Source: Lachnospiraceae bacterium (GTDB taxonomy: Bacteria > Bacillota > Clostridia > Lachnospirales > Lachnospiraceae). From it: a stretch of DNA of 47,771 nucleotides. Below are positions 29,462-38,293 of the stretch, one piece after another. The position numbers and the translations under genes were made by a program. The stretch is taken from NCBI GenBank assembly GCA_017476665.1, contig JAFUZJ010000039.1:1-47771 (forward strand), given 5' to 3'. The notes beneath the pieces were generated by a model, which was not told where the DNA came from, ran no database searches, and saw only the letters and a list, made by a program, of their open reading frames with translations. How positions within the stretch are numbered: position 1 is the first letter of the stretch; each line of letters opens with the position of its first letter.

Positions 29462-29545
29462 GCAGGAATGGCGGAATTGGCAGACGCGCACGGTTCAGGT
29501 CCGTGTGGTAGCAATACCATGAGAGTTCAAGTCTCTTTTCCTGCA
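29462..29545 (+). tRNA. tRNA-Leu(CAG)
   Basis: An 84-nt class II tRNA. The acceptor stem GCAGGAA pairs with TTCCTGC, discriminator A; the anticodon stem CACGG/CCGTG holds the loop TTCAGGT with anticodon CAG at 29496-29498; a variable arm and T arm (GTTCAAG) follow. CCA is not encoded. Its 3' end is the integration target of the element that follows, and the copied sequence leaves the tRNA intact. Confidence 0.95.
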
Positions 29546-29546
29546 C
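29530..29546. repeat. attL core, left direct repeat
   Basis: AGTCTCTTTTCCTGCAC, covering the last bases of the T arm and the acceptor stem of tRNA-Leu. Confidence 0.85.
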
Positions 29547-29556
29547 TGTATTTTGT

Positions 29557-29590
29557 GGCTTTTCATGTGATTGCATGGAGAGCCATTTTT
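29557..29590 (+). terminator. Hairpin with T tract after tRNA-Leu
   Basis: GGCTTTTCATG (29557-29567) pairs with CATGGAGAGCC (29574-29584) with two G-U pairs, followed by ATTTTT. It lies inside the element and would end tRNA transcription in place of the host terminator now at 38296. Confidence 0.65.
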
Positions 29591-29676
29591 CATTGAAAAT
29601 AAAGGCTTTTCTGAACATTCACTTGTTTTGTCTTGTGTTATCATTATACATCAAAAAATGTGGTTTTTGGGGGTAA

Positions 29677-29710
29677 TAGTAGTCAAAATAGTAGTCAGAA
29701 AAATAGTCAG
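29677..29710. promoter_or_regulatory. Candidate integrase arm-type sites, left end
   Basis: Three direct repeats: TAGTAGTCA (29677-29685), TAGTAGTCA (29689-29697) and ATAGTCAG (29703-29710). The same motif recurs at the right end of the element. Confidence 0.6.
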
Positions 29711-29766
29711 TTTCCCTTATAAATAAAGGATTTCCGGCAAATCAGATTTTAAAAAAACAAAAAAAT

Positions 29767-29803
29767 CAGCCCCACTTCTGCTCTACTGTCAGAAATGGGA
29801 CTG
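29767..29803 (-). terminator. Intrinsic terminator of the integrase operon
   Basis: A 14-bp stem (29767-29780 with 29790-29803, two G-U pairs), 9-nt loop, followed on the minus strand by ATTTTTTTG and more T. Confidence 0.85.
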
Positions 29804-29824
29804 CTGCCATCTTTTATTTTATTA

Positions 29825-30961
29825 TCAGAGTGCTAAAACCATTGTATCCATTGCCGCCTGCTTGGTGTCTGTCAGACAATGCCCATATAGGCTCATGGTG
29901 ATATTGAAATTGCTATGTCCCATGATCTCCTGCAAGGTTTTCATATTCATGCCGTTCTCAATGGCTCTGGTTGCAAATGTGGCGCGGAATGCGTGCATCG
30001 AAAAAGGCTCTATGCCTGCTGCCTTGCAGATTCTTATAATTTCCCGATCAGTAGGCATTGCCAGCAATAACCCCCGCTCCGGTGCTTTGAAAATACGATC
30101 ATCCATTGAAACCACATTTCCGTCAAGCATACTATTAATTGCCTTTTGGTCTGCCAGAATAGCCTTGATCTGCTCATTCATGGGGATGGTGCGCCGTCCT
30201 GCCTCTGTCTTTGCATTCTCACCCATTATATGCGATCCCGTTTCCGTCCGTGTGATCGTCCTCTCAATGTGGATCATGCCACCCCGGATGTCTGAATTTT
30301 TCAATGCTCCGATTTCGCCGATCCGCATCCCAGTACTAATCGCAAATCTAAACACATTGTAATAATATGACTTCTTGCAACGCTCACACTCGAAAAATTT
30401 CTTCTGTTCCTCCAAAGACAAGGCTCTGTGCCCGGTGTTCCTCGCCTTTTCCTCTGTCCGTTTCAGCGGTTTCAACAATACGCAAGGGTTATAGTCAATC
30501 ACACGCTCCTTTAACGCATCATTCATAAAATGCTTAATATGTGCCAGATAATCATTTACAGTCTGCGTTTTACGCTCTTTCCGTGTGCCATCTTTCCTTA
30601 CTTCTCCCTTTTTCAATTCTGTCTGCAATACCCGCAGATCATCAATAGATACCTCTTTCAGCTTTAATTCTCCAAAGGTTCTATTGGCGGAGGGTATTTT
30701 AACCGCCTTGAACGCATGGAACATTTTCCCCTGCGCCCGCAATGTAGCATCAGAAACCGTTCCACGCCGCGCCTCTGTCCAGCGTTCATAGTATTCTGAT
30801 ACTGTGGGATTGTTCCGCTTTTCAAGTCCCTTTTCGATCTCCTCACGCTTTGCCAGTTCCTTCTCAAACAGTTCCTTTGTTGAGTGGCCATATACAACAT
30901 ATTTCTTGCCGTTTACGGTAAATGCTTTTTGCATCCGGCCGTCTGCTCGTTTCTTTGCCAT
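29825..30961 (-). CDS. int: Tyrosine-type site-specific integrase
   Basis: A 378-residue phage-type recombinase. The N-terminus (residues 1-60) is an arm-binding-like domain (KAFTVNGKKYVVYGHSTKE), then a SAM-like core-binding domain, and the catalytic domain from about 190. Catalytic residues visible: Arg in STGMRIGEIGAL, HAFRATFA (H-x-x-R), MGHSNFNI (His) and Tyr in MSLYGHCL. It would catalyse integration into tRNA-Leu at the 17-bp core. It lies closest to attL and is the last gene of an operon with four microproteins. Confidence 0.93.
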   Translation of the reverse strand: MAKKRADGRMQKAFTVNGKKYVVYGHSTKELFEKELAKREEIEKGLEKRNNPTVSEYYERWTEARRGTVSDATLRAQGKMFHAFKAVKIPSANRTFGELKLKEVSIDDLRVLQTELKKGEVRKDGTRKERKTQTVNDYLAHIKHFMNDALKERVIDYNPCVLLKPLKRTEEKARNTGHRALSLEEQKKFFECERCKKSYYYNVFRFAISTGMRIGEIGALKNSDIRGGMIHIERTITRTETGSHIMGENAKTEAGRRTIPMNEQIKAILADQKAINSMLDGNVVSMDDRIFKAPERGLLLAMPTDREIIRICKAAGIEPFSMHAFRATFATRAIENGMNMKTLQEIMGHSNFNITMSLYGHCLTDTKQAAMDTMVLAL

Positions 30962-31026
30962 AGTAGCACCTCCTTATAGCGAAGGGGACGCCAAACCGCC
31001 GCCCCCTGTGTTTGTGTAATAAGTAA

Positions 31027-31155
31027 TTACTTGTTGTTCTTACGCCTAACAATTGTTTCGTGGAATATCGTATAAACAAACCTCAAAACAATTGCGTCTT
31101 TCGTTTCCCTTGCCATCTTGATAATCTTTTCTCTATACCACTCTTTCTCGTCCAT
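31027..31155 (-). CDS. Microprotein C, 42 residues
   Basis: MDEKEWYREKIIKMARET then KDAIVLRFVYTIFHETIV, ending RRKNNK. It has the same pattern as its two upstream neighbours: a short charged start, a K-I-I-x-x-x helix and a second hydrophobic helix, here with a basic tail instead of KED. The start lies 2 nt after the stop of microprotein B and has GAAGGAGG upstream. Such small two-helix proteins are common on Clostridial mobile elements; function unknown. Confidence 0.6.
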   Translation of the reverse strand: MDEKEWYREKIIKMARETKDAIVLRFVYTIFHETIVRRKNNK

Positions 31156-31157
31156 GC

Positions 31158-31271
31158 TCAATCCTCCTTCGTCATATTCTGAATAAACAGCAGAATTTGT
31201 TCCAGAATCCATATTCTATCAATCGCCTCCACCCGCTCAATAATTTTTGCCTTACATTCTTTCAGAGTCAT
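31158..31271 (-). CDS. Microprotein B, 37 residues
   Basis: MTLKECKAKIIERVEAID then RIWILEQILLFIQNMTKED. Predicted as two short amphipathic helices. It aligns with microprotein A at the E-x-V-x-A-I-D-x-x-W-I-L core and the KED end. ATG 31271 follows the stop of A by 6 nt, with GGAGG about 10 nt upstream inside A. Confidence 0.6.
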   Translation of the reverse strand: MTLKECKAKIIERVEAIDRIWILEQILLFIQNMTKED

Positions 31272-31277
31272 GCTTTC

Positions 31278-31394
31278 TCAGTCCTCCTTCATAACAGCGA
31301 TAATAAGCCGTTTTAATCTGCTAAGGATCCAGAGATCGTCAATCGCTCTTACCAGTTCACAAATTTCCTCTTGAAAATGTTCCTCTGCACTCAT
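31278..31394 (-). CDS. Microprotein A, 38 residues
   Basis: MSAEEHFQEEICELVRAID then DLWILSRLKRLIIAVMKED. Start ATG 31394 overlaps the TGA of the upstream small membrane protein (ATGA) and is preceded by GGAGGGCAGGG. Paralogous to B and C. No family name recognised. Confidence 0.6.
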   Translation of the reverse strand: MSAEEHFQEEICELVRAIDDLWILSRLKRLIIAVMKED

Positions 31395-31525
31395 ACCCTG
31401 CCCTCCTGTCCTGCCATCACCGCAACGATAGCAACCAGTGCCATGATAGCGGCTACTACCCTCCAGAATGCCGTATGTTGCTTCTCCATCTGCAAAATTT
31501 CTGTTGCTAATTTTTTACTTTTCAT
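31391..31525 (-). CDS. Microprotein D, 44-residue single-span membrane protein
   Basis: MKSKKLATEILQMEKQHTAF then WRVVAAIMALVAIVAVMAG. One hydrophobic helix at about residues 22-38 after a charged N-terminus. It is the first gene of the four-gene run, with GAGGAGAGTAG upstream. An inverted repeat AAAATTA/TAATTTT lies just before it (31543-31561). Confidence 0.6.
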   Translation of the reverse strand: MKSKKLATEILQMEKQHTAFWRVVAAIMALVAIVAVMAGQEGRV

Positions 31526-31669
31526 GTTTTCTACTCTCCTCTAAAATTAGTGTTTAATTTTGTTTGCAGGAAAGCCTCTCGCCATGTTAGAATATTTCAT
31601 GTGTGGGCTTTTGCCTGCGCTTGATAAAGTAGGGGTATCTCGCTTTGGTCGGTGATTGATACTCCTATT

Positions 31670-31846
31670 TTATTTTTGCTCTGCCAAAAGTGATAATGCC
31701 TTTAAGATCGTATCTGTTCTTGACAATCCATATTTTTTAGCCAATTCATTCAACAATCTATTTTGTTGCTGATTTAATCGTATTTCAAGCCGAATGCCTT
31801 TGCTTTCTCCGTCACATTTTGGCGGTCTGCCTGTTCTAGGGCTCAC
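31670..31846 (-). CDS. Ribbon-helix-helix type DNA-binding protein
   Basis: A 58-residue protein, start GTG 31846 with AGAGG 8 nt upstream, giving SPRTGRPPKCDGES as the N-terminus (the family's usual MSPRTGRPP start). The rest, IRLEIRLNQQQNRLLNEL then LSRTDTILKALSLLAEQK, has the beta-strand plus two-helix layout of CopG/Arc regulators. An 11-bp perfect palindrome overlaps its promoter, so autoregulation is likely. Confidence 0.75.
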   Translation of the reverse strand: MSPRTGRPPKCDGESKGIRLEIRLNQQQNRLLNELAKKYGLSRTDTILKALSLLAEQK

Positions 31847-31868
31847 ACTTTTCACCTCTCTTTCATTT

Positions 31869-31913
31869 ATGCCCGTACATATAAAATTATACTATTGTAC
31901 GGGCATAAGTCAA
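31869..31913 (-). promoter_or_regulatory. Promoter and palindromic operator of the RHH gene
   Basis: TTGACT (31908-31913) and TATAAT (31886-31891) on the minus strand, 16-nt spacer. A perfect inverted repeat, ATGCCCGTACA (31869-31879) and TGTACGGGCAT (31896-31906), flanks the -10 box. Confidence 0.7.
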
Positions 31914-31948
31914 GTATTATTTTTTTCAAAAAACGAACATTTGAAATT

Positions 31949-32004
31949 ATGCGTATAAAATATGTGTATAATTTCTTGACATGCGCACAAAATAGGCGTA
32001 TAAT
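31949..32004 (+). promoter_or_regulatory. hicAB promoter with two direct-repeat operators
   Basis: TTGACA (31976-31981) and TATAAT (31999-32004), 17-nt spacer. Two 24-bp direct repeats, 20 of 24 identical (31949-31972 and 31981-32004; core ATGCG...AAAATA...GTATAAT), are offset by 32 bp, and the second covers the promoter. They are probable HicB binding sites. Confidence 0.65.
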
Positions 32005-32026
32005 TATCATTGTAAGGAGGCGAGAC

Positions 32027-32212
32027 ATGACATCAAGGGAAATTTTGAAAACACTCCACAATGACGGCTGGTATGACGTGGATCAAGACGGCTCACATCT
32101 ACAGCTAAAACACCCTACCAAACCCGGCAAAGTCACTGTACCGATACATGCGGGAAAAGACATCGCACCGGGAACACTCAATAAAATACTGAAACAGGCA
32201 GGGCTTAAATAA
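32027..32212 (+). CDS. hicA: HicA-type mRNA interferase toxin
   Basis: A 61-residue toxin. TSREILKTLHNDGWYDVDQ then GSHLQLKHPTKPGKVTVPIH is the HicA dsRBD-like fold; the catalytic His is in GSHLQLKHP. It would cleave mRNA and stop translation when free of HicB. ATG 32027 has AAGGAGG 6 nt upstream. A toxin-antitoxin pair here may stabilise the island or defend against phage. Confidence 0.9.
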   Translation: MTSREILKTLHNDGWYDVDQDGSHLQLKHPTKPGKVTVPIHAGKDIAPGTLNKILKQAGLK

Positions 32213-32253
32213 GCCCCTGTTTGTACGCTCATCCAAGAAAGGAGCATAATATC

Positions 32254-32667
32254 ATGTTAAATTTAACTTATCTAGCAGTATTGGAACCGGGAGAAGATGG
32301 CAGCTACAGTATTTCCTTCCCCGATCTCCCCGGCTGTTTCAGCTTTGGTGATAATTTGTCTGATGCACAACACATGGCGGAAGAAGCTGCAAGCCTCCAT
32401 GTTTACGGTATGGAGCAGGATGGAGAAGAAATTCCCACTCCTTCCGTCAGACTTCCAAAAGAAGAAACCGAAGGCAATGTCATTATGCCTATCACAATTC
32501 ACCCTGACCTCTACCGTGCAAAGCGGGACAATGAACGCGTCAAGACCAATATCACACTTCCTGCATGGCTGAAACGGATTGCCGAAGAGCAGAAAGTCAA
32601 TTATTCTCGCATTTTGGAGAATGCCCTGATTGACTATCTGCAACTTCCAAAGAAAAACCTACAATGA
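32254..32667 (+). CDS. hicB: HicB-type antitoxin
   Basis: A 137-residue antitoxin. The N-terminal partial RNase H-like fold (LAVLEPGEDGSYSISFPDLPGC, then AEEAASLHVYGM) binds HicA; the C-terminus (TNITLPAWLKRIAEEQ, NYSRILENALIDYLQL) is a ribbon-helix-helix domain for operator binding. ATG 32254 has AAAGGAG upstream, 41 nt after hicA. Confidence 0.9.
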   Translation: MLNLTYLAVLEPGEDGSYSISFPDLPGCFSFGDNLSDAQHMAEEAASLHVYGMEQDGEEIPTPSVRLPKEETEGNVIMPITIHPDLYRAKRDNERVKTNITLPAWLKRIAEEQKVNYSRILENALIDYLQLPKKNLQ

Positions 32668-32722
32668 TTTTTATTGCAATATCCCATTCCTCATGATACA
32701 ATAAGCTTAGGCTAGTTTTGTT

Positions 32723-32765
32723 AAGGCGGTATGTTTTTAGACGGGGCATACCGCCTTTTTTATTT
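32723..32765 (+). terminator. Terminator after hicAB
   Basis: GGCGGTATG (32725-32733) pairs perfectly with CATACCGCC (32747-32755), 13-nt loop, followed by a T run. Confidence 0.85.
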
Positions 32766-33144
32766 TATGGATTTTTCAAGGTGCCTTTTTTATTTCTGGG
32801 GAAGTTTGAGGGACTAAGTAGAGCCACCACCATAGCCCTCAAAAACCCCCTCCGCATCAACTATTCGTTAAATTATGGTTTTGCGCATAGTTGACTTTCG
32901 CTCTGTAGCGGTATATTCCACCGTTCATTGACGGTGAACAATACATTCAGCGTTTTATTGTTGCCACTACTACTGCCCCACCACTCATGTGTCCCCCGAA
33001 AAACGGAAAAGCCTGCCGACAAGGATGTCATGTTTCATTACTCCCCTCATATTCGCCCCATACAAGCCTATTACTGTTCTATGCGATAACTTTATCATTA
33101 AATTGCTTTTCGTGGCTCTACGGGGCAAATACAAGGTTGTGGCA
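32766..33144. other. Non-coding stretch between hicAB and the satellite late-like genes
   Basis: I see no convincing gene in this 379-bp stretch. It contains an 8-bp inverted repeat TCAACTAT/ATAGTTGA (around 32857-32894), a CACCGT-TCATTG-ACGGTG hairpin (around 32920-32937) and a CGCT-CTGT-AGCG hairpin between them. Its position at the end of the packaging-like genes would suit a packaging or transfer site, but nothing proves it. Confidence 0.3.
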
Positions 33145-33297
33145 TTATCTGCGGTATTTATCCAGCAACTGCTGAGTATTGCCACTGTTTGTGTGCCGCT
33201 GTGCTAATTGTACCGCTAAACGCTGTGCTGTGCTTTGCTGTCTCTGTGCCTGCCGCTTTTCATAATCCGTAATAATGCGCTTTGCCGTTTCGTCCAT
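33145..33297 (-). CDS. Small hydrophilic protein, 50 residues
   Basis: MDETAKRIITDYEKRQAQRQ then QSTAQRLAVQLAQRHTNSG, ending LLDKYRR. Gln/Arg-rich and probably helical. ATG 33297 has GAGGAGG 9 nt upstream and follows the stop of the 313-residue gene by 3 nt, so it belongs to that operon. Unknown function. Confidence 0.55.
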   Translation of the reverse strand: MDETAKRIITDYEKRQAQRQQSTAQRLAVQLAQRHTNSGNTQQLLDKYRR

Positions 33298-33300
33298 ACA

Positions 33301-34242
33301 TCACGCCTCCTCTGCAAATGCTTTCTGAATTGTTCCGCAAAATCTGCTATCCGCTGCAAACAATTCCTTTAATCCCTCGTCCCGCTTTGCAATCTCGACG
33401 GCTCGATCTTGCGCCAACGATGGATATTTTTCAAAGTCCGTTAAAAATCCAAGTAACTCCCGCTCCTGCGAAGTAAGTACTCTTTTTTCCGGCTCTGCCA
33501 TGTTGTCCAACACCTCGATCTCATCAACAAATGAAACCTCGCCATCAGAAAAACCGCGCTCAAAATAGGTATTTGCTTTAGTTGCAAAGGAAATTTCTGT
33601 TGCACTCTTACGATCTCGGAACATATCCATTTCCGGCTCGGTTCCCGCATATCCCATAATTACGAGATGCACTACATTTTCCAGACGCTTAAAGCCTGCG
33701 TAAATGTTGTCAACACTAGGAATTTTGATAAAATAGGGATCATCTTTTGTCTCTGTCATCCGGCGCGGATTGCCTCGATCATCCAGTTTTGCTGTTTGTA
33801 CGGATTTTGTGCGACTTTCCGCCAGTCGCCGCAACATTTGCAATTCACTAAATGTACTAGCCTGCCGCCGCAGCATCTGAAATTCATCATAGGTCAAATT
33901 GTTTGCCATTCCCATCTGATAATATGCAGTAATCTTAGATGCAAAGGCGGGGTTCGGGTTCGCACCCAGTGTCTTATCAATCCTGCTACGAATAGTCTCA
34001 AGATCCTTGTCCACAATTTCCTTGTGCTGTTTCCGCAGATCGTCCAAAACAGCCTTATAATCGTGGCTAGGCTGCCAGCTTTTCCGAAATTCTTCAAGAT
34101 AGGTTTCGGAATAGCGCCCACCTCGATTTTCGAGAAGTTCGTCTCTCTGCTGCCGCTCTTGCTGATAAGCGGCAATTATGCTATCTGCCTCCTGCCGAAA
34201 TGTCCCCAAATCGACAATCAATTTTTTAATGTGTTTTTTCAT
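33301..34242 (-). CDS. Island protein of unknown function, 313 residues
   Basis: Not recognised. The first half (TFRQEADSIIAAYQQERQQR, then RKSWQPSHDYKAVLDDLRK) is helical and probably coiled-coil. The second half holds a mixed region (KIPSVDNIYAGFKRLENVVH, then YFERGFSDGEVSFVDEIEVL). No membrane segment or catalytic motif is visible. It sits between the terminase-like gene (3 nt) and the 50-residue gene, so a role in DNA packaging or capsid interaction is possible, but this is inference from position. Confidence 0.5.
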   Translation of the reverse strand: MKKHIKKLIVDLGTFRQEADSIIAAYQQERQQRDELLENRGGRYSETYLEEFRKSWQPSHDYKAVLDDLRKQHKEIVDKDLETIRSRIDKTLGANPNPAFASKITAYYQMGMANNLTYDEFQMLRRQASTFSELQMLRRLAESRTKSVQTAKLDDRGNPRRMTETKDDPYFIKIPSVDNIYAGFKRLENVVHLVIMGYAGTEPEMDMFRDRKSATEISFATKANTYFERGFSDGEVSFVDEIEVLDNMAEPEKRVLTSQERELLGFLTDFEKYPSLAQDRAVEIAKRDEGLKELFAADSRFCGTIQKAFAEEA

Positions 34243-34245
34243 GTC

Positions 34246-34737
34246 TTATTCCTCGCTTTCTTCAATATTTCCCAACTGCGGCAGAGCCGACACTGGTAGC
34301 GGCGATCTGCCGTTATGTTCAAGTGGCAATCCTTGCTCGATTGAAACAGAATCCCGATAATTCATCCAATTTTTCATTAAAAAAATTGAGGTTGCCGGGT
34401 TTAACTTTCCTGCAAGCGCCATTTGTTCAAGAAAAGCATCAATGCTCTGCTTTGCATTCTGCATGATTGCCGCTCTTTCAGCATCGCAATTTTCCCCACG
34501 CAGCCAGTAAAAAACTGTCTGACGCGAAACCGAAAGCGCACAAGCCAACCCTTCAACACCCGGTCTCCAACCTCGCTCTCTGCAAAACGCAAAATAATCA
34601 TCAATTCTCTGTTGCAGTTCAATGTTATCTTTGGGTTTTCCCTTGTTTCGCAGATCAAGCAGACAAGTCACCATTTCTTTGATCTGAACCGCTGGTACTT
34701 CGCTAAGTTCAGATGTTGGAAAATTGTTCTTTCCCAT
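34246..34737 (-). CDS. Terminase small subunit-like DNA-binding protein
   Basis: A 163-residue protein. Residues 40-55 (ELQQRIDDYFAFCRERG) start the pattern of phage small terminases; an HTH follows (VEGLACALSVSRQTVFYWLRG), then the helical oligomerisation part with AKQSIDAFLEQMALAGKLNP and the hallmark TSIFLMKNWMNYRDSVSIE. TerS proteins bind pac or cos DNA and choose what is packaged. There is no large subunit in the element, which is typical of satellites that redirect a helper phage. Called by pattern, not by alignment. Confidence 0.6.
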   Translation of the reverse strand: MGKNNFPTSELSEVPAVQIKEMVTCLLDLRNKGKPKDNIELQQRIDDYFAFCRERGWRPGVEGLACALSVSRQTVFYWLRGENCDAERAAIMQNAKQSIDAFLEQMALAGKLNPATSIFLMKNWMNYRDSVSIEQGLPLEHNGRSPLPVSALPQLGNIEESEE

Positions 34738-34794
34738 ATTTTATACCTCGCTTTCTACTATTTCTTTTTTGTAATGTTAATTAGTGCGCGGAAG

Positions 34795-35016
34795 TTAGCC
34801 CATAGCCGCCTTTGATTTCCTCTCCAGTTCACAAGTGACCGCCAAAACCAGATCACGGCAAAACTTCCTGTCGCCATGCTCCTCCCGGATTCGTTCCGCA
34901 TCAGCAACGCACTCCGCCCATTGTTCGTCACTTTGATCTATGCCGCCCCACCGCTTCCAAAATTCCCATGCCGCATTAAAATCTTGATACTGCGTTGTCT
35001 GTCTCATACTATCCAT
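34795..35016 (-). CDS. Small acidic protein, 73 residues
   Basis: MDSMRQTTQYQDFNAAWEFW then KRWGGIDQSDEQWAECVAD, ending with a basic tail. Trp-rich and helical; family not recognised, though similar short proteins precede terminase genes on Clostridial elements. AAGGAAG lies about 10 nt upstream. Confidence 0.5.
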   Translation of the reverse strand: MDSMRQTTQYQDFNAAWEFWKRWGGIDQSDEQWAECVADAERIREEHGDRKFCRDLVLAVTCELERKSKAAMG

Positions 35017-35045
35017 AGAATTAAAACTTCCTTTTACTGGTTCAT

Positions 35046-35209
35046 TTACTGTCGCATTCTCCGTGAGGGTGAAGGAAGTGAGTCAGTAAGAGGCAAAACC
35101 CTTATAAATAAAGGCTCCGCATTTACTGTCGCAGGTGAGTCAGTAAAGGGCTATTTATTTGCTTACTGTCGCACATTGCGTCAGTAAATACAAACCCTTA
35201 TAAAATAAG
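35046..35209. repeat. Iteron-like repeats, candidate replication origin
   Basis: Three units each start TTACTGTCGCA and end TCAGTAA (35046-35089, 35123-35146, 35163-35187), so each has TTACTG/CAGTAA inverted ends. AT-rich boxes CCCTTATAAATAAAGG (35099-35114) and CCCTTATAAAATAAG (35195-35209) lie between and beside them. The block is just downstream of the RepA-like gene, where satellite origins lie. Confidence 0.55.
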
Positions 35210-35245
35210 ACTTTTTTATCAATCAGACTCACTTCGCATCCCCCC

Positions 35246-36535
35246 TTAAGAGGAGTTGAGACAGATATAAAATTTCTTATTGCTCCCATACCCTTCACAC
35301 CGATATTTGATAATACCGTTTTCTTTTAATTCAGCCTTACACCGCTTAAGCGTTCCTGTGCTAATTCCGGCAGCTTTCACCGCATCGTCCACCTCTTTTG
35401 TCAGATGGTCTTTTGCATCTCCAAGCAAATTGAGAATAATCTCTTTGCACTCTGACTTTGCTGGTGCTGATCTGCTCACCTGAGCATTTTCCAGAACAAA
35501 ATCTTTGTCCCGCTTTGCTGTGGTGCCTTGATATATGATTTTGCTGTCTTCGATAGTGAAAAGGATAGTCGGCTCCTGCTCCGCATAGTTTGACTTCTCA
35601 TGGGACAAATACCGAATATTGTTTTCTCCAGTATTCCCGGCAATCAGTACCGAACGGGCAATATCCCAAATGTCGCTTGAATCGGCGCACCGTGCCCGAC
35701 CATATGTACCTTGTTTCTTGTTTGTGTGCATGACAATCAAAAAAGTTGTAGCATACTTTTCGCCCAGGGCAATAAGTGGCGAAAGGCATTGTCGCATGGC
35801 GTTTCGGCTACCCATCTGAACCGTTGGCGGAATAAAACTTTGCAACGGATCAAATACACATAGTTTCGGCTTATTGTCTGAAATGAGTTGTTCCAGTTGC
35901 GGAGAGTCAAATTTAATCAGATTAAAATTTTCATCTGCCAGATCGATGAATTGCACTTTGCTTTCATCTGCCCCCGCCCGTCGTAATCTGCGCTTAAGCA
36001 CCATTGGCACGCTATCTTCAGAGGAAAAAAACAAACAATTCCCTATTTCCCCGTCCATATCAAATGGGGTTACATTTTGATTCAAAATAGTTGTCTTTCC
36101 CGCTGTAACGCCTGCAATCAGATCACACCATATTGAAGTTTTTCCAGAGCCACCATCGCCAACAAGTAGCGTAATCTGCTCTTTCGGAATGTATTGGGGA
36201 AAAAGCCATTCCATCGTTTGCTCGGCAACCTCATCCACCCTTTTCAGTTTGATTGTTGCGATTTCTGGTGCCTGCGGTCTAGGTGACTGTCTTAACGGAT
36301 TAGTTTCGATTATTTTTCCAGCCTCTTTATCGTTCCGACTATATTCTGCCTCTTTGACACCCTTCCATACCAAATAACAATCTACGCCTTCAGGTGTCAT
36401 CTTAGACAAAAGATACGGCTCACGGATTGGATCCGCAACAGATAACGCATAAATTTTTCGAAACTCATTTTCAGTGTAGACTGCCGCTTTTGAAAGTTCC
36501 TCGGCTATCTTCTCTACAAATGCGGGCATTTCCAT
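35246..36535 (-). CDS. RepA-like AAA ATPase/helicase with winged-helix C-terminus
   Basis: A 429-residue protein from ATG 36535 (MEMPAFVEKIAEELSKA), 8 nt after AGGAGG. The ATPase core has Walker A GDGGSGKTS and Walker B-like KLCVFDPLQSF, then FLIVMHTNKKQGTYG, the layout of RepA/KaiC-like hexameric helicases (AAA_25). The C-terminal 70 residues (AKDHLTKEVDDAVKAAG, STGTLKRCKAELKENG) look like a winged helix for binding DNA. It probably replicates the excised island. A longer frame from 36625 reads Arg-rich sequence in another gene's space. Confidence 0.75.
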   Translation of the reverse strand: MEMPAFVEKIAEELSKAAVYTENEFRKIYALSVADPIREPYLLSKMTPEGVDCYLVWKGVKEAEYSRNDKEAGKIIETNPLRQSPRPQAPEIATIKLKRVDEVAEQTMEWLFPQYIPKEQITLLVGDGGSGKTSIWCDLIAGVTAGKTTILNQNVTPFDMDGEIGNCLFFSSEDSVPMVLKRRLRRAGADESKVQFIDLADENFNLIKFDSPQLEQLISDNKPKLCVFDPLQSFIPPTVQMGSRNAMRQCLSPLIALGEKYATTFLIVMHTNKKQGTYGRARCADSSDIWDIARSVLIAGNTGENNIRYLSHEKSNYAEQEPTILFTIEDSKIIYQGTTAKRDKDFVLENAQVSRSAPAKSECKEIILNLLGDAKDHLTKEVDDAVKAAGISTGTLKRCKAELKENGIIKYRCEGYGSNKKFYICLNSS

Positions 36536-36629
36536 CCCTCTCACCTCCTGCTCCCGCCTGCTGCCGCGCCTTGACCTCCTCAACCATCCCATTCCAGCGG
36601 GGAAAATCTCGCCTTTCTTTTTCATTCAT
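36471..36629 (-). CDS. 52-residue protein overlapping the RepA-like start
   Basis: MNEKERRDFPRWNGMVEEVK then ARQQAGAGGERDGNARICRE. The perfect AGGAGG 6 nt before ATG 36629 supports it, and its end overlaps the RepA-like gene by 65 nt in another frame, with that gene's own ribosome-binding site inside it. It may be a translational leader for rep or a real small protein. Unknown function. Confidence 0.45.
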   Translation of the reverse strand: MNEKERRDFPRWNGMVEEVKARQQAGAGGERDGNARICREDSRGTFKSGSLH

Positions 36630-36639
36630 GGCTGACCTC

Positions 36640-36831
36640 CTACTGATATAATTTGTCGATTGCTCTGTCCAATGTTTCAATATCGATTCGCACCGCTCTA
36701 CCAATACGCCTTACCGCGCCCTCCGCCGTTGCTAGTTGCATCAGTGTTGTCCTCCCTAGCTTGTACCGTTCAATTGCCATTTCAACCGTGGCCAGTTTTC
36801 CCGGTTTGTTTGTATAACTTGGTTTATTCAT
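36640..36831 (-). CDS. Excisionase-like small HTH protein
   Basis: A 63-residue basic protein. LATVEMAIERYKLGRTTLMQ, then AEGAVRRIGRAVRIDIETLD, is the MerR/Xis-type HTH (DUF6462/excisionase-like). It would bend DNA at the element ends to favour excision, or regulate early genes. First gene of the leftward operon (Xis - 52-residue - Rep - ...), divergent from the XRE repressor, the usual switch layout. Confidence 0.65.
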   Translation of the reverse strand: MNKPSYTNKPGKLATVEMAIERYKLGRTTLMQLATAEGAVRRIGRAVRIDIETLDRAIDKLYQ

Positions 36832-36985
36832 GTTTTACCTCCGTCTAATTATTTGTGACTTCATGCGCATTTCCGTCTTTCTTTGTTGCAGTTTTATTTT
36901 ATATCTGTTAATATATTACTGTGAATGGTGAAATTTTAAATTTATTTATTTATTTTTACCCTAATATATTATTTTGGAGGAACCC
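36832..36985. promoter_or_regulatory. Divergent control region of repressor and leftward operon
   Basis: AT-rich. Two identical palindromes TAATATATTA lie at 36909-36918 and 36962-36971, and TTGCAG with TAATAT at 17 nt gives a plus-strand promoter for the repressor that includes the first palindrome. They are candidate operators. Confidence 0.5.
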
Positions 36986-37705
36986 ATGGAAGACATCAAT
37001 AATAACAAGAGACCTAGTCCAAATAAAGGAAATAGCTTGAAATTACCTATAGAAATTACACAAAATTTCAAAAATAGATTTAATGCAAGATATAAAGAAT
37101 TAAATCTTACTTATGACGAAGTAGCACAAAAAGCCGGAATAAACCGCAAAACAATTGATAACTGGATTTATGGGAAAAAAAATGAAACGACAGGGGAAAC
37201 AGAATATACTCCGCCATCTATAGCTAAACTAATAAAAATAGCTAGGGTCCTCGGTGTATCTCTCGATTATCTTATGAATCCCGAAGTTGATTGTTTGACC
37301 ATGACTAATCAAATGATCTGCGATAAAACAGGGTTATCAGATAAAGCCATAAACAACTTAGGGAAAATCGGACATATATGTGAAAAAAGAAATGAGCTTG
37401 TGGATTCTAGTGAAATAGATATGTTAAACTATATAGTCGGACAAGATAACTTTTATGATTTTCTCCACTATCTTAAGTTCTTTTTTGATAATGAGTTTAG
37501 GGTTCCTCTTGCATTAGAAGGTAGTTCTTATGTAAACGCAAATACATCTGGTGCTATTGTTTTAGGAAAAAAGATGATTGATAATGCCGGGAATGATGGA
37601 TATGCTGCTTTCGCTGATGATATATCTAAATTTACGGACTCCTATGCAATATATAACATTGAAAAAATATTAAATACTTGGAAAGATAATTATAAAGACA
37701 ACTAA
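36986..37705 (+). CDS. XRE family transcriptional regulator
   Basis: A 239-residue protein, ATG 36986 with TTGGAGG upstream. The HTH is LTYDEVAQKAGINRKTIDNW (about residues 42-61), extended by a loop with GKKNETTGETEYTPP before the last helices (IAKLIKIARVLGVSLDYL). The C-terminal half (KFFFDNEFRVPLALEG) has no known catalytic motif; a sensor or dimer domain is likely. Very AT-rich compared with the host. Probably the island's master repressor, facing away from Xis/Rep. Confidence 0.8.
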   Translation: MEDINNNKRPSPNKGNSLKLPIEITQNFKNRFNARYKELNLTYDEVAQKAGINRKTIDNWIYGKKNETTGETEYTPPSIAKLIKIARVLGVSLDYLMNPEVDCLTMTNQMICDKTGLSDKAINNLGKIGHICEKRNELVDSSEIDMLNYIVGQDNFYDFLHYLKFFFDNEFRVPLALEGSSYVNANTSGAIVLGKKMIDNAGNDGYAAFADDISKFTDSYAIYNIEKILNTWKDNYKDN

Positions 37706-37740
37706 CGAATTTAACTATCCAACGCCCCACATAGCCCCCA

Positions 37741-38130
37741 AACCACAAAAGGTGTTATTTCCTCAATGGCGATCATAAAACCGCTAGAAACGGTAAATAC
37801 ACGCTTTCCCAGTGTACAAACTTATTACACAAGCCTAGCGGTTGTACGAATTTCGTTCAACCCGTACCCGTAGGTACGCAGCATTCCCAGGAAGTTGGGA
37901 AGCCTCATGCACACTTGATGGCACGATACCGTTGCGGTACCGTAGGTACACCTACGCTTGTTACCGCTCACTCATTTTTCTCGCGTTGCCAAAATGGCAA
38001 CACCTAGCAGAATACAAATTTCAATCCCTGAAACTGCGTCAGAAAGATACGCGCTACAAGCGTACCCGAAGGTACACTTGCACCTATAACCTCCGTAAAG
38101 GTTTTAGCGGACGTTTCAACCCGTAAAATG
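37741..38130. ncRNA. Non-coding tract of serial hairpins, candidate large structured RNA
   Basis: No gene. Perfect or near-perfect hairpins follow one another: AACCGCTAG/CTAGCGGTT (37779-37787 with 37835-37843, enclosing more), 37841-37861, CGTACC-CGTA-GGTACG (37863-37878), a two-level stem at 37881-37910, CGTAGGT-AC-ACCTACG (37941-37956), GTTGCCA-AAA-TGGCAAC (37985-38001), GTACC-CGAA-GGTAC within 38058-38079 and AACCT/AGGTT (38088-38103). The CGTACCCGwAGGTAC hairpin occurs twice. Orientation is unknown; plus is suggested by the upstream repressor transcript. Confidence 0.45.
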
Positions 38131-38209
38131 ATTTACCTGCTCCGTGCTTTTCTTTTGCAACAGGGTGCAAAAAATTTCACACCCCAACCTGCTTATTTTT
38201 GAGTGAAAA

Positions 38210-38237
38210 TAGTAGTCAGTAGTCAAAATGGTAGTCA
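38210..38237. promoter_or_regulatory. Candidate integrase arm-type sites, right end
   Basis: TAGTAGTCA (38210-38218), GTAGTCA (38219-38225) and GTAGTCA (38231-38237), same motif and orientation as at the left end. Confidence 0.6.
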
Positions 38238-38276
38238 TTTCCCAGAATTCCGCATAAATACGCCATTGTTGGTTTT

Positions 38277-38293
38277 AGTCTCTTTTCCTGCAC
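38277..38293. repeat. attR core, right direct repeat
   Basis: AGTCTCTTTTCCTGCAC, identical to 29530-29546; the flanking bases differ on the upstream side, marking the end of the element. Confidence 0.85.

Follow-up and report, generated by a model that had tools for sequence, protein, structure and literature searches.

The closest described systems to the element reported here are the phage-inducible chromosomal islands (PICIs) of Gram-positive bacteria, among them the Staphylococcus aureus pathogenicity islands (SaPIs). In SaPIs, as stated in the available part of PMC6092414, excision and replication follow once a helper protein has lifted the repressor, and preferential packaging is directed by the element's own terminase small subunit (TerS). 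The same part of that source defines Gram-positive PICIs by a divergent repressor and xis-rep operon, an integrase gene (int) that lies to the left of the repressor and in its orientation, a primase or replication initiator followed by the origin (ori), terS in some members, the absence of structural and lytic genes, a size of typically ~15 kb, att sites never used by prophages, PICI-unique genes, and induction, interference and packaging that depend on a helper. We analyzed a stretch of 47,771 nucleotides from a Lachnospiraceae bacterium (contig JAFUZJ010000039.1, the whole of which is called the window) and describe in it an 8,747-bp island that is probably an integrated PICI-like phage satellite, a reading drawn from sequence in which induction and packaging by a helper are predicted steps. 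This label had been proposed in an earlier note on the same DNA and is supported by the tests run; int, a repressor switch, rep with a presumed ori, and terS are all present. Lachnospiraceae are major gut bacteria. In the open-access literature of PubMed Central we found no description of phage satellites in this family; the SatelliteFinder survey may list some.

Comparison with Gram-positive PICIs

The island shares most of the testable features by which the available part of PMC6092414 defines Gram-positive PICIs: site-specific integration, a repressor divergent from a xis-rep operon (with a weak Xis match), a replication initiator followed by the origin (here an AAA_25 ATPase with iterons, the presumed origin, directly 3' of its gene), terS, and no structural or lytic genes found, while some relatives carry one virion module. 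As to PICI-unique genes, the island TerS proteins form a group (84/82) and the RepA protein is distantly matched in phages, the listed matches being below 30% identity. The window departs from the definition in its integrase gene, which lies at the far end of the island, co-oriented with rep-terS; the staphylococcal layout invoked by the earlier note therefore does not hold for the integrase, whereas the canonical int-repressor order is found in relatives with a VapE-like protein (L054 and others). It also differs in size, 8,747 bp against ~15 kb, the latter being given as typical and no strict bar, and in having a RepA-type ATPase without a matched primase part. Because of the int order and the size, the island, which would work like a PICI, is filed as a PICI-like variant and not as a canonical member.

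For each SaPI-type step, a candidate part is present in the window. During growth of a helper phage, a helper product would lift the XRE repressor, the integrase and the Xis-like protein would excise the island as a circle, and RepA would replicate this circle from the iterons. The island TerS would mark island DNA at its own pac or cos site and pass it to the terminase large subunit (TerL) of the helper, which would fill helper heads with island DNA, and the island would integrate in the next cell.

Insertion at the 3' end of a tRNA-Leu gene

The island is a real insertion between direct repeats at the 3' end of tRNA-Leu. The target gene, tRNA-Leu(CAG), was identified by ARAGORN at 29462..29546 on the plus strand, and its 3' end forms attL. 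The att core, the 17-bp AGTCTCTTTTCCTGCAC, occurs in exactly two plus-strand copies in the whole window, at 29530..29546 (attL) and 38277..38293 (attR). These copies are identical, as read in the earlier note, which had placed the second one 8.75 kb away; their spacing gives the island size of 8,747 bp, and 20 of 22 bp are identical in the wider repeat around the core. An empty site was found in a same-genus genome (L096), where dgt, tRNA-Leu and glgD are intact, in the same arrangement and without an insert. When the window flanks were joined and compared with L096, the alignment ran through the att core with 72% identity over 619 columns. L096 was the one informative region among 20 fetched from the same genus, the other 19 showing no glgD match and thus being uninformative on the empty site.

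Repeats detected by repeat search at the left end (AGTAGTCA, 29678..29709, plus strand) and at the right end (AGTAGTCA-type, 38199..38237, plus strand) are putative arm sites of the integrase, and the relative L135 has a comparable repeat pair, GTTAGTCAAATGTTAGTCAAA, close to both of its ends. The predicted tyrosine integrase (378 aa, 29825..30961, minus strand) was borne out by matches to Phage_integrase (PF00589, 2.8e-21) and phrog_1 (3.5e-60). The closest integrase found (68%) adjoins an Xis-like gene in genome G486 (L142); the surroundings there are of another kind and include, by eye, a DinB-like gene.

Repressor switch and replication module

Read from the right end, the island begins with the XRE gene, which faces outward on the plus strand, and continues on the minus strand with the Xis-like gene, the ATPase gene, the iterons, orf73, the TerS gene, ORF313, a ribbon-helix-helix (RHH) gene and the integrase gene; the plus-strand hicAB pair separates ORF313 from the RHH gene. 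The XRE repressor (36974..37705, plus strand; HTH_3, PF01381, 5.8e-12), divergent from xis-rep-terS, has no S24 peptidase domain among its Pfam matches, which would fit a repressor lifted by a helper protein and not one removed by SOS cleavage. Facing away from it is the Xis-like helix-turn-helix (HTH) protein (DUF6462, 36640..36831, minus strand; PF20063, 6.5e-9). The divergent pair noted before was thus recovered, with a weak match (just 0.0054) of the Xis-like protein to the excisionase phrog_16129.

The RepA-type replication ATPase (459 aa, 35246..36625, minus strand) matches AAA_25 (PF13481, 4.7e-23). Just 3' of its gene lie the iterons (35043..35212, plus strand), which form the presumed replication origin and in which a repeat count made without shuffle control gave three TTACTGTCGCA and two GTGAGTCAGTAA units, so that the RepA-like ATPase followed by iteron-like repeats stands as first described. 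Iterons lie 3' of rep in three islands, the window, L017 and L075; those of L017 and L075 are different, also palindromic (TTATTCCCC/GGGGGAGTAA type), and occupy the same place, which suggests that the presumed origin stays in place but varies in sequence. The primase part of the replication protein is matched in relatives such as L075 and unmatched in the window ATPase. The window RepA matched 37 of 50,697 phage records, with identities under 30% throughout the 15 listed.

A terminase small subunit with no other virion genes detected

The 163-aa protein encoded at 34246..34737 (minus strand) is a terminase small subunit of the P22 gp3 type by both family score and fold. It reaches 40.6 bits against GP3_package (PF16677, 3.2e-10), for which the curated cut-off is 29.4, and matches the small-terminase fold of phage P22 gp3 (PDB 3p9a) with 14% identity; it also matches phrog_606 (1.3e-5), and its gene has no adjoining TerL gene. 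The possibility, raised in the earlier note, that it is really a plasmid replication or partition protein did not materialize, its matches being to small terminases. The search for TerS in plasmids and the single-protein TerS scan of viral contigs gave nothing or were dropped. With the TerS profile against PDB sequences, the best hit (0.0029) was a potassium-channel fragment and was taken as chance. MT838186 and two phage records from faeces, in which TerS has weak relatives, look like parts of other phages and therefore provide no packaging evidence.

Profile searches with the 10 main window proteins gave no other structural or packaging gene at E 0.001, and tblastn with 18 virion proteins gave no match in the island. 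TerL, portal, capsid and tail genes were not detected in it, and it does not answer to the definition of a prophage. This agrees with the TerS-like gene standing without other phage structural or packaging genes in the first description, with one weak exception: orf73 (34795..35016, minus strand), a small family-conserved protein upstream of terS (cluster C5, 25 loci including the window), matches the head-scaffolding phrog_2592 at 0.016.

Directly downstream of terS lies ORF313 (33301..34242, minus strand), which is mostly helical and found near terS in a subset of relatives: its cluster occurs within a few genes after terS in ten other loci, one of them a duplicate contig. Its matches in Pfam, PHROGs, NCBIfam and PADLOC are none better than 0.057. 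Nine sequences were aligned and the structure model has a pLDDT of 80.9; against BFVD, this model gave a single match (3.5e-4, TM just 0.41-0.44), an uncharacterized siphovirus protein, and against the PDB nothing below 0.8. A profile run on 299 genomes returned its own place, a known place in G174 and two partial weak ones, and the single-protein scan of genome contigs gave nothing or was dropped. Our guess is that ORF313 might act in capsid or packaging interference.

Related TerS islands in Lachnospiraceae

The earlier note had suggested looking for this gene order in other Clostridia, and relatives carrying these genes were found in many Lachnospiraceae. TerS relatives are present in 3 of 61 genomes near the host (its own included, one weak) and in 10 of 397 family genomes (own included, several weak); 29 loci came from a genome collection and 29 from IMG/VR, many of the latter in phage-like or unassigned contexts. 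Genes in these loci were called with a simple ORF script of our own, and some contigs were fetched twice (L017/L080, L013/L054, L059/L026 and others). By tblastn, neither TerL nor portal was matched in 28 of the 29 genome-collection loci, L082 showing both; TerS relatives have a TerL nearby in L037, L045, L048 and L082, and in L037 and L082 a portal as well. A TerL label on the map of L032 was a guess and was rejected, the protein having 0 PHROG families. The TerS-island set for tblastn comprised 35 loci, of which 28 (of 29) came from the genome collection and 7 (of 29) from IMG/VR; L026 was omitted because it duplicates the L059 contig, and the remaining 21 loci are in phage-like or unassigned contexts. 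In tblastn with the 18 virion proteins, which include proteins of the searched loci that match themselves, 31 of the 35 had no match and 4 (L025, L069, L071, L077) matched the tape measure alone.

In a common layout among these relatives, int and XRE face one way, and the genes for a small HTH protein, a VapE-like primase-helicase, orf73, HNH, TerS, small proteins, a serine resolvase and a sigma factor face the other. In others, among them L017, L075 and L079, int has the terminal position that it has in the window. A search of 25 loci for att-like repeats delimited nine relatives of 7.7-16.2 kb, some of which sit after rpsI or at the end of a conserved gene (gene names by eye); the repeats of L017 and L075 are low in complexity, and others, such as one of 211 bp in L077, were not used. 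To these nine, the delimited set adds L031 (IMGVR_UViG_3300006217_002198), a contig of 13.5 kb whose two ends share a 70-bp repeat and which probably existed as a circle in its sample.

We built a TerS tree from 47 of 54 rows (two fragments and five identical sequences dropped). All island TerS except L035 (32 of 33) form a single group (84/82), which is separate from the 8 rows from phage contexts and the 6 unassigned ones; of the former, L051 is labelled phage by kinship only. Within it, the window groups with L017, L075, L077 and L079 (89/81), on long branches.

Integrative mobilizable elements likewise contain integrase, Xis, XRE and RepA genes, and the island might be one of them, transferred by conjugation and using its TerS-like protein for regulation only. 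The weak match of the 61-aa RHH protein to MobC_2 (0.062, below cut-off) and the occurrence of a close integrase (68%) at the different kind of locus in G486 would fit this. In Pfam, however, no relaxase or conjugation family scored above cut-off in the 10 window proteins, a novel relaxase type being possible. The 71 accessory ORFs (at least 60 aa, core clusters left out) of 10 delimited relatives gave 10 Pfam families, 0 of them conjugative and 0 virion-structural; in PHROGs, the structural families of these ORFs all came from the L071 tape measure, among the 25 of 29 families listed. Neither conjugation genes nor a full set of prophage genes, which according to the earlier note would count against a satellite, were seen between the ends of any relative examined. 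Moreover, the TerS has the P22 small-terminase fold and phage relatives near TerL, and genes for TerL, capsid, scaffold or tape measure are present in related islands. We consider a conjugatively moved element very unlikely.

Another explanation could be that the island is no longer mobile and that TerS is kept for phage interference alone. A TerS-like protein could poison helper packaging, and toxin-antitoxin genes are present in the window and, by Pfam on the accessory ORFs, in some relatives. Mobility is favoured by the integrase, by att ends that each have arm-type repeats, and by the occurrence of relatives across many genera; an immobile island is the least probable of the readings weighed here. 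Both explanations are ranked below the satellite reading, as is prophage decay, which is considered below.

RepA-sharing islands with other virion modules

At E<=1e-40, the RepA-type ATPase of the window was found in 12 of the 397 genomes of the family, the host among them; two IMG/VR contigs also carry it (64-66%). Ten loci were fetched besides the window and L017; their integrase, repressor and Xis-like genes are partly shared, but they lack the window-type TerS. The two IMG/VR contigs, whose RepA is closest to that of the window, carry TerS and TerL (L118:3314-5096, L119:3709-5297), with TerL matches to phrog_2 and phrog_3717 at about 1e-43 to 1e-44. In L118 a different TerS (phrog_7344, 1.5e-4) precedes TerL, and L119 has a 58% relative of it; two portal queries gave no tblastn match in either, L119 being a short contig. 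Two distant islands contain a scaffold-like protein (2.5e-5 in L134, 4.6e-12 in L140) beside a major head protein (L134:5625-6948, L140:11336-12639; phrog_422, 5e-59 and 3e-61), alone among the virion genes sought. A tape measure is encoded by L141 (6e-125), together with a tail chaperone (1.4e-22), and by L135 (1e-73). No virion module was detected in L132 and L133, by tblastn or among the 25 of 52 PHROG families listed. Among phage records, 75 match the L134 head protein (up to 42% among the 8 listed) and 81 match the L135 tape measure.

Some of these islands have recognizable ends: those of L135 are marked by a 45-bp repeat at tRNA-Thr and those of L133 by one of 16 bp at tRNA-Gly, and weaker end repeats are present in L132 (13 bp), L134 (18 bp, AT-rich) and L140 (16 bp). 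Housekeeping genes were recognized by eye on both sides of L134 and on one side each of L135, L140 and L141, while L136-L139 and L141 are cut by contig ends. In a tree built from 16 RepA rows, the rows with capsid genes and those with tail genes, two of each, stand on separate, well-supported branches, forcing two changes each for the capsid and tail labels (with two rows each, clustering is untestable). The nearest kin of the window are the TerS+TerL contigs (100/99), and its TerS kin lie elsewhere. With all labels, the tree needs 7 changes against a shuffled mean of 9.1, a value as low being reached in 6 of 200 shuffles.

The simplest reading of the RepA-sharing islands, given these small numbers, would be an exchange of hijacking modules. 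Tentatively, and at less than even chances, the window may belong to a modular Lachnospiraceae satellite superfamily, in which the integrase, the repressor/Xis genes and the RepA-type ATPase with its iterons would form a common chassis for a single exchangeable hijacking module acting at a different virion-assembly step in each island. The proposed modules are TerS alone (window, L017, L075, L076), TerS+TerL (L118, L119), scaffold+capsid (L134, L140) and tail chaperone/tape measure (L141, L135), and TerS would be combined with a tape measure in four islands with other replication genes (L071, L077, L025, L069). If so, satellites would swap the assembly step they hijack while keeping their replication and integration genes, and a tape measure of their own would set the tail length or DNA-injection specificity of helper-made particles.

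The same pattern could be produced by decay, the island and its relatives being remnants of different full phages that each kept a few genes. RepA-sharing islands keep different virion genes, as differential loss could give, and 6 of 12 RepA-type loci gave no virion module by tblastn, four of these being cut by contig ends. Against this, the same compact gene set with long open frames is found in many genera, the island TerS group stands apart from phage TerS, and the window has an integrase and att ends, with an empty site elsewhere and one relative probably circular. Nor would random decay be expected to leave a scaffold+capsid pair in two distant islands; such functional pairs and delimited ends count against independent decay, in small numbers. 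Decay of prophages is thus unlikely, and the satellite reading is retained.

Described satellites offer partial parallels. In the available part of PMC8569155, the cos-type SaPIs (such as SaPIbov5, with the capsid homolog Ccm) carry one helper-type virion gene, comparable to the scaffold+capsid islands L134 and L140; in contrast, the window carries TerS and no capsid gene, and its RepA-sharing relatives carry different modules. Capsid-forming PICIs (cf-PICIs) likewise encode packaging and capsid genes, as does this island group, but theirs form a full head and packaging set according to the available part of PMC10690885, whereas one or two such genes are found per island here.

Among the TerS islands without a TerL, portal or capsid match, the tape measure genes lie at L071:12716-16435, L077:12427-16206, L025:7541-10627 and L069 ~14337. 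The first three match phrog_1535 (6.5e-53, 2.8e-124 and 2.1e-32, respectively); that of L069 was recognized by similarity and is cut by the end of the stretch. Small proteins of clusters C59 and C60 precede the tape measure in L025, L069 and L071. No report of a satellite with its own tape measure was found in the open-access PubMed Central literature, and such a gene would give satellites an experimentally tractable means of altering helper tails.

Candidate helper in the host genome

Contig C71 of the host genome (G000; L115, L116) contains a prophage with HNH, TerS, TerL (phrog_9, 5e-98), portal and HK97 capsid (PF05065, 3.1e-14) genes, as well as tail genes and a tape measure by eye. It is a possible helper of the island and is considered a candidate only. 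Its TerS is of another type than that of the island, and no DNA match to the island was seen in the part compared. This prophage also has a HicB-like frame. Elsewhere in the host genome, a phrog_2 match (9.6e-5) was rejected, as it lies inside a 740-aa frame, a RecD-type helicase by eye, and the family also gives matches in 11 of 14 control genomes; phrog_38 gave nothing in this genome.

Accessory genes and other features

The plus-strand hicAB genes encode a HicA toxin (32027..32212; PF07927, 4.2e-23) and a HicB antitoxin (32254..32667; PF15919, 6.7e-20). On the minus strand lie the RHH regulator-like protein (61 aa, 31670..31855; phrog_876, 3.5e-8; RHH_1 at 0.006, below cut-off) and another short open frame of 61 aa (31027..31212), for which a PADLOC scan, the sole scan made on the "coupled microproteins" of the earlier note, was empty. 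That note had suggested that a satellite with TerS, hicAB and microproteins may be an undescribed family; relatives occur in many Lachnospiraceae, and hicAB and the microproteins look like accessories of this island copy and not like marks of the family.

Finally, the stretch between the XRE gene and the right end (37706..38180, plus strand) is rich in hairpins. Its single-strand DNA fold has a z of -4.1, ~4 standard deviations better than shuffles, 0 of 100 of which fold as stably. It contains three GTAGGTAC-type near-palindromes and could be a packaging or replication site.

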